NCBI RefSeq assembly: GCF_001758225.1
Contig: NZ_MAST01000052.1
Location: forward strand, 62,001-126,000
DNA from: Humibacillus sp. DSM 29435
GTDB taxonomy: Bacteria > Actinomycetota > Actinomycetes > Actinomycetales > Dermatophilaceae
DNA length: 64,000 nt
Reading direction: 5' to 3'
The notes under the pieces were generated by a model. The model saw nothing but the letters and a program-made list of their open reading frames with translations. It had not been told where the DNA came from and searched no databases. The stretch's first letter is position 1; every line of letters begins with the position of its first letter. This document shows positions 56,216 to 63,120 of this stretch, one piece after another. Position numbers and translations under genes: made by a program.

Positions 56216-56281
56216 CGTGCGAGAGATGTGCGGCACACCGCCGTGTCGCACTTGGGCCGTACGGTGAGGAAGTCGCTACGC

Positions 56282-59200
56282 ATGTCTGCGTCACTGGAGA
56301 AGTCTCGAACCGATGCCCTGTTGTCTGCCGTGGCAACAGCCTCGCCTGTCGCCCCGAAGGGCCGACGGCGCGCTCGTGCCACTGGTGGTGACGACATCAA
56401 GGGACTGCTCGAGGCCTACTTCAGACTCGTCGCCACCGAAGACCTCATTGTTCGTGAGCCGGCCGAGCTGGCCGCGATAGCGCTGGGGCACAAGGCGTTC
56501 GCGCAACTTCGCCCGGTCGGCACGACCAGTGTGCGCGCCTTCAACCCGAGCGCCGACGTCGATGGCTGGGAGTCGCTCTACACCGTCGTGCAGATCGTCA
56601 TCGACGACATGCCCTTCCTCGTCGACTCGGTCGTGTCGGCCCTCGGCGGGTTCGACAGCGGCGTACACCTGATCATCCACCCCCAGCTCAACGTGGCGCG
56701 GTCGATGACGGGCGACCTCGACTCCGTGCTGACCGACGGTGAGACCACCGTCGACAACGGCGCGGTCGGGTTGGCGCGTGAGTCGTGGATGCACCTCGAG
56801 ATCGACCGGCTCCCCGACGCCTCCCTGACGGAGGTCGAGTCGCGGCTGCGCCAGGTGCTGGGCGACGTGCGGGCCGCCGTCGAGGACTGGCCGAAGATGC
56901 GGGCCCACGCCCTCACCATCGCGAGCGAGCTGAAGTCGGCCACCCCTCCGGGCACCGACCCGCACCAGGCGCGTGAGGTGAGCCGCTTCCTCGAGTGGCT
57001 CGCCCACAACAACTTCACCTTCCTCGGCTACCGCGAGTACGCGCTGAAGCACGAGTCGGGGCGTGACATCTCGCGCCAGGTGCCGGGCACCGGTCTCGGT
57101 CTGCTGCGAGCCGACCGCAAGGGCGATGCCGCCGGCCTCGTGCTCAGTCCCGCGGCCAGCCGGGCGGCCCGCGACGAGAACATCCTCATCGTCACCAAGG
57201 CCAACTCGCGCGCCACGGTGCACCGCGACGTCTACCTCGACTACATCTCCATCAAGCGTTTCGACGCGCGCGGAGAGTGTGTCGGAGAGCAGCGCTTCCT
57301 CGGCCTCTACGCCTCCGCTGCGTACAACGACACGATCCACGACATTCCCCTGCTCGACCGGCGCGCCCAGCAGGTGCTGCGCAAGACGGGTCTCGCGCCC
57401 GAGAGCCACTCGGGCAAGGACGTCCTCCAGATCCTGGAGACCTACCCCCGCGACGAGCTGTTGCAGACCAATGCAGACCAGCTGGCCGAGGTGGCCACCA
57501 GTGTGCTGCACCTGCAGGAGCGCCGGAAGACCAAGCTGTTCCTGCGTCGTGACGAGTTCGGCCGGTTCATGTCGTGCCTCGTCTACCTCCCTCGCGACCG
57601 TTACAACACGACGGTCCGGCTGCGCATCGAGGCCATCCTGCTCGAGGCGTTCGGGGGGGCCTCGATCGACAACACGGCCCGGGTCAGCGAGTCGGTGCTG
57701 GCCCGGCTGCACTTCGTCGTGCGGATGCCGGCGGGCGTCGACATCCCCGACTTCGACGAAGAGGCCCTGGAGCGCCGTGTCGTCGACGCCACCCGCACGT
57801 GGGACGAGGACCTCGCCGAGGTACTGGCAGACGCGCGGGGGGCTGAGGGCGCGGCGCGCGCCATGGCCACCTACGCCAAGGCGCTGCCGGAGGCGTTCAA
57901 GGAGGACTTCGACGTCGAACGGGCGGCCGCCGACCTCGAACGCATCGACGCGCTCGACGAAGCGGCGTCGGCGACGTCCCTGCACCTCTATCTCGACCCG
58001 AACAGCGAGGATGCCGGCGAGCGCCGGTTCAAGCTGTACCGACGGTCCGAGCTGTCGCTGACCCAGGTGCTGCCGCTCTTCACCCACCTCGGCGTCGAGG
58101 TCGCCGACGAACGCCCGTACGAGGTGCCCCAGGTCGACGGCAGCCTGCACATCTACGACTTCGGCCTGCGGGCCCCGGTCGAACGGTGGGGTTCCGGCAA
58201 CGCCGTCGAGCAGGTGCGAACCCGCTTCGAGGACGCCTTCTCTGCGGTGTGGGAAGGCCGTGCCGAGTCTGACGGCTTCAACGCCCTCGTGCTGGGCGCA
58301 GGCCTCAGGTGGCGCCAGGTCGTCATCCTGCGGACCGTCGCCAAGTACCTGCGTCAGACGCGTTCGACCTTCTCGCAGGACTACGTCGAGTCAGCCCTGG
58401 TGACCCATTCCGAGATCGCGCGGCGCCTCGTCGAGCTGTTCGAGGTGCGCTTCGACCCCGAGGCGTTCGACGACACCGAAGCCGGCCGGGGCAAGCGGGC
58501 CGCCCGACAGAAGACCATCGTCGGTCACATCAAGAGCGACCTCGAGGAGGTGGCCAGCCTCGACCACGACCGCATCGTGCGCGCCCTGCTCGGGGTGATC
58601 CTGGCGTGCCTGCGTACAAACTTCTACCAGCGCGACGCCGACGGCAACGACAAGTCGTACGTCTCGCTCAAGCTCAACCCGAAGAAGGTGCTCGACCTGC
58701 CGGCTCCCCGGCCGATGTTCGAGGTCTGGGTGTACAGCCCCCGCGTCGAGGGCGTCCACCTGCGCTTCGGCAAGGTGGCGCGCGGCGGGCTGCGCTGGAG
58801 CGACCGCCGTGAGGACTTCCGCACCGAGGTGCTGGGCCTGGTCAAGGCTCAGATGGTCAAGAACGCCGTGATCGTGCCGACGGGTAGCAAGGGCGGGTTC
58901 TACGCCAAGGCGCTCCCCGACCCGACCGGCGACCGGGGTGCCTGGCTTGAGGAGGGCATCGCCAGCTACCGCACGTTCATCTCCGGAATGCTCGACCTGA
59001 CCGACAACCTCGTCGAGGGAGCCGTCGTGGCGCCTCCCCGGGTGGTGCGTCACGACGAGGACGACACCTACCTCGTCGTCGCGGCTGACAAGGGCACCGC
59101 CAAGTTCTCCGACATCGCCAACGGGATCTCGGCCGACTACGGCTACTGGCTCGATGACGCGTTCGCCTCGGGCGGGTCGGCCGGCTACGACCACAAGGGC

Positions 59201-61558
59201 ATGGGCATCACGGCCCGCGGTGCCTGGGAGTCGGTGAAGCGACACTTCCGAGAGCTCGGGCTCGACACCCAGACGCAGGAGTTCACCACGGTCGGCGTCG
59301 GCGACATGAGCGGCGACGTGTTCGGCAACGGGATGCTGCTCTCTGAGCACATCCGGCTCGTGGCCGCCTTCGACCACCGCCACATCTTCATCGACCCCGA
59401 GCCGGAAGCCGCCACGTCCTACGCCGAGAGGAAGCGGCTCTTCGAGATGCCCGGGTCGTCGTGGGGAGACTACGACGCCTCACTGCTGTCGACCGGAGGC
59501 ATGGTCATCGACCGGGCGGCGAAGTCGGTCACGCTCACCCCGGCGATGGTCTCGGCCCTCGGGATGCGGGCCGGCACGAAGACCATGACCCCGGCCGAGC
59601 TGATGAAGGCGATCCTGCTCGCGCCGGTCGACCTGCTCTGGAACGGCGGCATCGGCACCTACGTGAAAGCGAAGGCCGAGTCGAACGGCGAGATCGGTGA
59701 CCGGGCCAACGACGCCATCCGGGTCAACGGCTCCGACCTTCGCTGCCGGGTGATCGGCGAGGGCGGCAACCTCGGCATGAGCCAGCTCGGCCGCATCGAG
59801 GCCGCGCTCGCGGGGGTGCGGGTCAACACCGATGCCATCGACAACAGCGCCGGGGTCGACACCTCCGACCACGAGGTGAACATCAAGATCCTGCTGACGC
59901 AGCTGACGCGGTCGGGCGAGATGACGATGAAGCGGCGCAACACGCTGCTGGCGTCGATGACCGACGATGTGGCAGACCAGGTGCTGCGTGACAACTATGA
60001 GCAGAACGTGCTGCTCGGCAACGCGCGAGCTCAGGAGCACAGCATGCTCGCCGTCCATGAGCGGCTCATCCACTTCCTCGAAGAGCGCGGCGATCTCAAC
60101 CGCGATCTCGAGTTCCTGCCCTCCGACGCCGAGATCAACCGGCGGCAGAAGGACGGGCTCGGCCTGATGTCTCCCGAGTTCTCGGTGCTGGTGGCCTACG
60201 CCAAGCTCTTCCTGAAGAACCAGCTCATCGACACCAGCGTGCCCGACGACCCGTGGTTCGACGCGACCTTGGCCGAGTACTTCCCCCAGGCCCTGCGTAC
60301 CAAGTTCCCCGAGCAGATCGGGGCCCACCCCCTGCGCCGCGAGATCATCACGAACTCGGTCGTCAACTCGATGATCAACCGTGGCGGCATCACGTTCGCC
60401 TTCCGTTCCGGGGAGGAGACCGGAGCCTCACCCGAACAGGTGGCCCGCGCCTACGTCGTGTGTCGGGAGGTGTTCGACCTCTCCGGGTTCGTGCGCCGGG
60501 TCGAGGCCACCGACAACGTCATCAGCACCGACGCCCAGACCGTGCTCTACCTCGAGTTCCGCCGACTGCTCGACCGTGCGGTTCGCTGGTTCCTCACCTC
60601 CCGGCCCCCGGTGCTCGACATCGCGGCCGAGGTCGCCCGGTTCCGGCCGGGTATCTCCGTCTACGCCGAGCGGATGCCGGAGGTGCTTGTCGGTAGCGAA
60701 CAGACCCGTCTGACCCGACGCGCGCGAGAGCTGCAGGGTAAGGGCATCCCGGAGGACCTCGCCCTGACGGCCGCCTCACTGCTCGACGCCTACTCGGTGC
60801 TCGACTGCATCGAGATCGCCGAGGACACCGGCGAGCGGCTCGCCGACGTGGTGGGTGTCTACTTCAGCACCTCGGAGACGTTCTCGATCGATGCCATGTT
60901 GACCCGCGTCTCGGCGTTGCCCCGCGACGACCGGTGGGACGCCCTGGCGCGCGGTGCGCTGCGCGATGACCTCTATGCGGTGCTGGACAACCTCGCCCGG
61001 TCGGTGCTGGAGGTCAGTGAGCCCCGACAGTCGCCGCCGGACCGACTGGCGCAGTGGTCGCAACACAACGCGGACGCCCTCAGCCGTGCGCGCAGCGCAC
61101 TCGGCGGCATCGAGCGTCTGAGCCACGCCGGGATCGCGGCGCTCTCGGTGGCCCTGCGCACCCTACGCACCGTCACCAAGGCCGGTTCCTCTGGAGCCCC
61201 CGCGTCGGTGGAGTCGTCGCAGGCCCCTCGCACGTCGGAGTCGCGCACCGCGACCGCGGCGACCAAGAAGATGGCGGCCGCGAAGCGGGCGGCACCGGCC
61301 AAGGAGACGACGCCCCCGAAGACGACAGCTCCGAAGACGACGGCTCCGCAGAAGACAACCTCGAAGAAGACCACCACGGCGAAGGCAACCACACGGAAGG
61401 CGACCGCCCAGAAGGCGGCGCCGACCAAGAAGGCGGCGCCGGCCAAGAAGGCGGCACCCGCCAAGCAGGCGGCGCCGGCCAAGCAGGCGGCGCCGGCCAA
61501 GCAGGCGGCGCCGGCCAAGAAGGCCACCTCCAGGAAGCGCACGACCAAGAGCGTCTGA
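56282..61558 (+). CDS. gdh: NAD-glutamate dehydrogenase, 180-kDa class, with Lys/Ala/Pro-rich C-terminal tail
   Basis: This 1,758-residue protein is a large NAD-dependent glutamate dehydrogenase (L-180 class), turning glutamate to 2-oxoglutarate and ammonia. The N-terminal half holds ACT-like regulatory domains ([40 protein letters not shown]). The catalytic core includes [31 protein letters not shown] and [14 protein letters not shown]. Typical members have about 1,620-1,650 residues. Here residues about 1,660-1,758 form an extra Lys/Ala/Pro/Thr tail resembling histone H1. ATG 56282 is preferred over GTG 56228 because of the ribosome site. With pruA it routes proline to the TCA cycle. Confidence 0.95.
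61255..61555 (+). repeat. Lysine/alanine-rich repeat region encoding the GDH tail
   Basis: Codons for short Lys/Ala/Pro/Thr units (such as KKAAPAK and KQAAPAK) repeat through about 100 residues. Near the end, GCGGCGCCGGCCAAG-type DNA units are nearly identical. The tail is basic and probably disordered, like histone-H1-type extensions of some actinobacterial DNA-binding proteins. Confidence 0.85.
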
Positions 61559-61564
61559 CGCGGT

Positions 61565-61599
61565 CGAGCGGCCACCCCGCACGGTCGAGTGGCCGCTCG
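61565..61599. terminator. Terminator after gdh
   Basis: CGAGCGGCCAC (61565-61575) pairs perfectly with GTGGCCGCTCG (61589-61599), an 11-bp stem with a 13-base loop just after the gdh stop. Confidence 0.75.
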
Positions 61600-61620
61600 G
61601 TGGTGACCGAGCGCGCCGTC

Positions 61621-61626
61621 TAGGCT
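61621..61626 (+). promoter_or_regulatory. Leaderless-type -10 for the histidine kinase gene
   Basis: TAGGCT is followed by exactly six bases and the GTG start at 61633. Confidence 0.55.
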
Positions 61627-61632
61627 CAGGTC

Positions 61633-63120
61633 GTGGCAACCCTGAGCGAGCTCTTGCGGGCACGAACCAACGTCTCTGCCCACGATGCCGAGTGGCTGCA
61701 CCTGCTCGTCGGAGACTGGCAGCTGATCGCCGACCTCAGTTTTGCCGACCTCGTGCTCTGGGTGCGTTCGGTGAGCGACCGGTGGGAGGCACTGGCTCAC
61801 GTGCGCCCGACGACCGGCCAGCTCGTGTTCGTCGAGGACCAGGTGGGCCGCACCGCTCAGGCGGGGCGCATGGGTGACCTGTTGAGCGAGGCCGCCGACG
61901 AGCAGCGCATCCTGCGCGTGCGGCAGGTGGTGGTGCACCAGGAGCAGGTCCCGGAGCAGTCGGTGCGCGAGGAGTACATCCCCGTCGTGCGTCAGGGTCG
62001 GGTTGTCGCCGTCATGACCAGGCACACCAACCTCTGGACCACTCGTACCCCGAGCCGACTCGAGCTGACCTACCTCGCGACCGCCGACGCACTGTGCCGC
62101 ATGGTCACCGGCGGCGAGTTCCCCAACACGAGCGCACCTACTGGTCTGCGGCGCGGTGCCCCGCGGGTCGGCGACGGCGTCATCCGGCTCGATGTCGACG
62201 GCGTCGTGACCTACGCCAGCCCGAACGCGGTGTCGGCGCTGCACCGCCTGGGGCACCTCGGCGAGGTCGTGGGAGCGAGTCTGGCGCAGATCGTCACCGA
62301 CAACGTGCGAGAGTTCGACCCGGTCGATGAAGGTCTGGCGCTCGTGGTCACGGGCCGCCAACCGTGGCGCACCGAGATCGTCGCCGGTGGCACCACGGTG
62401 TCGATGCGCGCGATCCCCCTCACCGAGGCTGGTCAGCGGTTCGGGGCCATCGTGCTGCTTCGTGACGTGGGCGAGCTGCGCCGTCGTGAGCGGGAGCTGA
62501 TGACCAAGGACGCGACGATCCGTGAGATCCACCACCGTGTGAAGAACAACCTGCAGTCGGTCGCAGCCCTGCTGCGCCTGCAGGCCCGGCGCGTGCCGGA
62601 GGGGGAGGCCCGGGCGGCGCTGGCGGAGGCGGAGCGACGGGTCGGAACGATCGCCCTCGTGCACGACCAGCTGAGTGCGGGGTTCGACGAGACCGTCGAC
62701 TTCGACGCGATCGCCCAACGAGGGCTCAATGCCGTCGTCGAGGTGTCGGCCAACGGTGCTCCGGTGCGGACGACCACCGAGGGCTCTTTCGGTCGGCTCC
62801 GGGCCGAAGACGCTACTTCGCTCGCGATGGTGATGAGCGAGCTGGTGCAGAATGCGATCGAGCACGGACTCGGCGAGAACGGGGGCCAGGTGCACATCAC
62901 GATCGACCGTCAGGCCGACGAGCGGGGCAACCCGATGGTCGTGGTGTCGGTGGAGGACGACGGCAAGGGCATCGACCCGGCGCGACGACCCGGGTCAGGG
63001 CTCGGCACCCAGATCGTGCAGTCTCTGGTGGCAGACCTCTCCGGCCGCATCAGCTGGGAACCGGTGGTGCCCCACGGCACGCGGGCGCGGTTCACCGCCA
63101 GCCTGCGCCCCGTCACCTAG
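61633..63120 (+). CDS. pdtaS: PdtaS-like sensor histidine kinase (HisKA_2 family)
   Basis: This 495-residue soluble kinase has an N-terminal GAF-like domain (residues 1-140), a PAS-like domain (about 180-290), and the H-box [20 protein letters not shown] with phospho-acceptor His300 or His301. A HATPase region follows with [12 protein letters not shown] (N box), DDGKGIDP and [13 protein letters not shown]. The order matches PdtaS, which signals to the RNA-binding regulator PdtaR in actinobacteria. No PdtaR gene is present next to it. A leaderless -10 sits six bases before GTG 61633. There is no membrane segment. Confidence 0.92.

Follow-up and report, generated by a model that had tools for sequence, protein, structure and literature searches.

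The window analysed here, a 64,000-nucleotide stretch of Humibacillus sp. DSM 29435, carries a gene for a large NAD-dependent glutamate dehydrogenase (GDH) followed by one for a PdtaS-type histidine kinase (Table 1). Read from its GTG, the GDH frame comprises 1776 codons; an in-frame ATG at 56282, which follows an AGGAAG, would give a product of 1758 residues and is the likelier start, and the choice between the two leaves the C-terminal tail described below unchanged. All eight Pfam domains of the large GDHs were recovered in order and far above cut-off (GDH_ACT1–3, HM1–3, Bac_GDH_CD and GDH_C, the last spanning residues 1310–1647), and L-GDH180 of M. smegmatis (PDB 7a1d) aligned with the window protein over nearly its full length in one long homologous match, so that three ACT-like domains, three helical motifs, the catalytic domain and the C-terminal domain follow one another throughout the core as in the known enzyme. 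The mycobacterial protein is a tetramer with open and closed forms, in which the C-terminal domain takes part in inter-subunit contacts (PMC8175468). Known L-GDH180 stops at that domain, a usual though not strictly defining end, whereas the window GDH continues into a basic tail of 129 residues, and its core still qualifies it for the class.

Table 1. Features of the GDH locus in window coordinates.
Feature	Position	Strand	Basis
Large (180 kDa class) NAD-dependent glutamate dehydrogenase gene	56228..61558	+	ORF, Pfam, match to M. smegmatis L-GDH180
GDH C-terminal helical domain, up to last conserved motif SVALRTLR	60155..61168	+	Pfam GDH_C; AlphaFold
Lys/Ala/Pro/Thr tail, lineage-specific, 129 aa, net +27, predicted disordered	61169..61555	+	Relatives, composition, AlphaFold
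18-bp tandem array, AK[KQ]AAP-type hexapeptides, 6.6 copies	61406..61524	+	TRF, unit listing
PdtaS-type histidine kinase	61633..63120	+	Pfam GAF_PdtaS, HisKA_2; synteny

Past SVALRTLR, the tail contains 24 Lys, 6 Arg and 3 Asp/Glu (pI 11.8), with a combined Lys, Ala, Pro and Thr fraction of 0.76, and its net charge of +27 stands against −37 for the core. A sequence-only reading of this DNA had proposed a histone H1- or HupB-like tail beyond the enzyme core, and the composition bears this out: the tail is rich in Lys, Ala, Pro and Thr, strongly basic and poor in acidic residues. The region then marked (61255–61558) falls within a real tail, but begins ~85 nt inside the extension. In an AlphaFold model of the C-terminal domain and tail piece, rather than of the whole GDH, the domain was folded (most 10-residue blocks at pLDDT 80–96), and after residue 350 of that piece pLDDT dropped to ~33–40 with no secondary structure; the tail is thus predicted to be wholly disordered. 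It carries two AKKA and three PAKQA motifs; AKKA numbers among relatives range from 0 to 5 per tail, and the motif is absent in several species. No hydrophobic stretch occurs in the tail sequence, leaving the earlier suggestion of a membrane anchor without support.

Relatives came from scanning contigs and 188 genomes of the GTDB family, and the frame past SVALRTLR was read individually in 55 sequences. Among these, Lys-rich tails were found in 19 species including this one, with lengths of 45–152 aa (that of G001, a genome of the same genus, being incomplete, as a contig end cuts the tail) and net charges of +8 to +33. One tailed relative belongs to the same genus (86–90% identical), and 17 further species also carry the tail; recurrence in 18 other species answers the call to compare tail length in close relatives. 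A match at 92% identity is a Humibacillus MAG. Tail-less relatives, 34 of which are in the tree, end 7–12 residues past the motif, so that the true excess in the window GDH is ~117–120 aa. In a maximum-likelihood tree of the GDH C-terminal domain, all extensions fell into a single clade of 21 species with 100/100 support, an Intrasporangiaceae group of Humibacillus, Terrabacter, Intrasporangium oryzae and their kin. Two of its species, which form a sister lineage (genus g18; L102 and L104), have an extension of 36–43 aa with at most one Lys. Nineteen other genomes of the family, mostly chosen for long open frames, all stop 6–12 residues past the motif, and a twentieth is masked there; a search of 149 genomes of the order gave no match from other families that extended >12 residues beyond the motif before meeting a stop, a coarse result as the tool reads through stops. 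The simplest account of these sequences would be one gain of the extension in the clade; the extensions of g18, poor in Lys, would then represent either the ancestral state or derived tails that have lost their charge.

The PdtaS gene lies downstream of GDH in tailed and in most tail-less relatives examined, which argues for addition of the tail in situ, and fusion to a neighbouring gene was therefore rejected as its origin. On the minus strand, a 640-codon open frame (60973–62895) runs antisense to the tail and PdtaS, and long antisense frames opposite PdtaS also occur in Terrabacter and Intrasporangium relatives (L002–L004). Long frames of this kind are expected from high-GC codon structure, and the one in the window is probably not a gene.

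Tandem Repeats Finder resolved the distal tail into an 18-bp unit in 6.6 copies at 91% match; since repeats are prone to assembly error, the copy number may be inexact. Three units in succession share one sequence (GCCAAGCAGGCGGCGCCG), which points to recent expansion; the same had been suggested from the letters alone, and it holds for this last array, in the 3′ part of the tail only. K-to-Q changes within the array have been copied on with it, lowering the charge of the tail. Elsewhere in the genome, a DksA/TraR-type zinc-finger protein (G000:C7:47797-48612, minus strand) carries six PAKKAA repeats in its N-terminal half, encoded by a unit that is likewise 18 bp long (GCCAAGAAGGCAGCGCCG) and matches the two-lysine form of the GDH tail unit except at a single synonymous site. 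From the sequences, this likeness could reflect either ectopic copying or parallel slippage.

A scan for 40-residue segments rich in Lys, Ala, Pro and Thr covered 2.27 Mb (45%) of the genome, a non-random portion in which some regions were picked via repeat-search matches, and identified 13 ORFs including GDH. Its Pfam-assigned cytosolic companions were Ku, topoisomerase I (TopA), HU/HupB, the principal sigma factor and the DksA/TraR-like protein; the remainder comprised an HbhA-like protein (assigned by eye), secreted or membrane proteins, among them a penicillin-binding protein, and a few without family. GDH was the only metabolic enzyme with such a segment in the 2.27 Mb scanned, in agreement with the view that a tail of this kind is odd on a metabolic enzyme. 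The sigma factor (G000:C7:82706-84571, minus strand) bears an N-terminal TAAKTTAAKTT repeat block, and a very long Asp/Glu run of poly-GAC codons (G000:C6:63073-63242, minus strand) forms an acidic counterpart to the basic tails.

Similar lysine repeats have been described in TopA, HrdB, Ku and HupS of Streptomyces, where GDH is not mentioned (PMC7398561), nor does glutamate dehydrogenase appear in the main text of a Streptomyces nucleoid proteome paper; our literature search found no paper joining ‘glutamate dehydrogenase’ and ‘lysine-rich tail’. The tails of HupB/HupS, TopA, Ku, HrdB and HbhA share with that of GDH a Lys/Ala/Pro/Thr composition, terminal placement, predicted disorder and, less clearly, degenerate AKKA- or PAKKA-like repeats, and in the genome studied here such segments also occur on HupB, TopA, Ku and the sigma factor. 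These carriers are DNA-binding or transcription proteins, whereas GDH is a metabolic enzyme whose binding is putative: published work gives the tails of TopA, Ku, HupB and HbhA a part in DNA binding, which would extend to GDH by analogy. In HbhA, the AKKA-repeat tail is both necessary and sufficient for DNA binding, and AKKA-type repeats also matter in HupB (PMC10665949). The histone H1-like AlgP and PhaF of Pseudomonas have a long, basic, disordered repeat tail that connects the nucleoid with a granule cargo of polyphosphate or PHA; AlgP sits on polyphosphate granules and requires its KPAA tail for their even spacing (PMC9239181). Their tetrapeptide register, carrier and phylum all differ from those of GDH, and the likeness is one of composition alone.

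We propose that the GDH tail serves as a binder or tether to polyanions, a reading by analogy to which we assign a probability of about one half. A polycationic tail would have been gained once at the GDH C-terminus in one Intrasporangiaceae clade and later lengthened and shortened by in-frame repeat slippage. It would bind cellular polyanions electrostatically and multivalently, without sequence specificity; if the enzyme forms a homotetramer as in mycobacteria, four tails would together present a charge of ~+108. Much as the lysine-repeat segments of HupB, TopA, Ku and HbhA or the KPAA tail of AlgP do, the tail could thereby hold GDH loosely on the nucleoid, on RNA or ribosomes, or on polyphosphate, which makes the anchoring to nucleic acid or polyphosphate envisaged earlier plausible. 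Binding may also regulate the tetramer or its activity, and lysine acetylation might modulate it. This reading draws on the confinement of tails in 19 species to one well-supported clade, on the positive charge that every Lys-rich tail maintains despite its varied length and diverged sequence, on the association of such segments with nucleic-acid proteins within the 45% of the genome scanned, and on the predicted disorder together with the HbhA and AlgP precedents; a polyphosphate kinase gene (ppk) in the genome also counts in its favour. Weighing against it are the near-neutral rate of tail evolution, the scarcity of AKKA motifs and the charge-lowering K-to-Q copies, and from the two clade members with Lys-poor extensions it appears that GDH works without the charge.

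The most serious rival, although we consider it less probable, is that the tail is mainly a near-neutral by-product: an ancestral stop was lost, and GC-rich codon repeats (AAG, GCG, GCC, ACC, CCG) slipped into a tolerated disordered extension with no dedicated partner. Aligned tail pairs yielded dN/dS of 0.33–0.41, compared with 0.07–0.16 for the cores of the same pairs, and below the 5th percentile of neutral simulations (0.63–0.76). Tail pS, however, was ~1.4–1.9 times core pS in the same pairs, an excess that points to alignment of non-orthologous repeats, and we therefore discounted these ratios as proof of selection. With core synonymous divergence as the yardstick, tail pN was ~0.7–0.9 of core pS, close to neutral, suggesting weak constraint at the level of residues. 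The wide range of tail lengths, the lineage with a short extension nearly without Lys, the recent 18-bp array and the expansion of a like repeat in the DksA/TraR-like gene of the same genome all fit neutral growth. Composition provides the stronger argument for selection: in neutral simulations, Lys fell from 18 to ~8 after 100 substitutions per 312 nt and ~4 after 200, whereas 18 of the 19 real tails retain 11–29, and all 19 are strongly basic where drift should have cut Lys several-fold, unless re-expansion of Lys-rich units mimics such retention. Nor are metabolic genes peppered with such segments, GDH being their sole metabolic carrier among the 13 ORFs. Selection on the tail thus seems likely, rather than proven, from these sequence comparisons.

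An autoregulatory or assembly role appears unlikely. Here the tail would dock onto the acidic core, or onto an acidic partner, and adjust how the tetramer is shaped or how active it is, an effect that polyanions or acetylation of lysines might lift. The opposed charges of core and tail speak for such a role, as does the position of the mycobacterial C-terminal domain at subunit contacts within a tetramer that opens and closes. Against it, the modelled tail adopts no structure and contains no conserved motif, and tailed enzymes have a less acidic C-terminal domain than tail-less ones (mean −4.8 vs −10.7), the opposite of co-evolved attraction, albeit from a single phylogenetic contrast. A frameshift, mis-assembly or read-through into unrelated sequence, the first of which had been named as grounds for abandoning the tail, found no support beyond the proneness of repeats to mis-assembly and is rejected for the tail as such, as the frame continues into a Lys-rich tail of shared composition in 18 other species and GC3 of the tail is 0.91.

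The GDH tail is thus of a familiar type, and what is new is the type of protein that carries it. Lysine-repeat tails of actinobacteria have been described on DNA-binding and transcription proteins, and here one occurs clade-wide on a large enzyme of central metabolism. Sister genera with and without the tail, a single origin, a single gene and an unchanged neighbourhood constitute a clean natural experiment, in which one can ask directly whether a tail of this kind is by itself enough to change where an enzyme sits or how it is regulated, or whether high-GC genomes let such tails spread neutrally. More tentatively than polyanion binding as such, it is possible that one clade has made its large GDH nucleoid-, RNA- or polyphosphate-associated by means of an H1-like tail, which would tie the breakdown of glutamate to chromosome or polyphosphate state.
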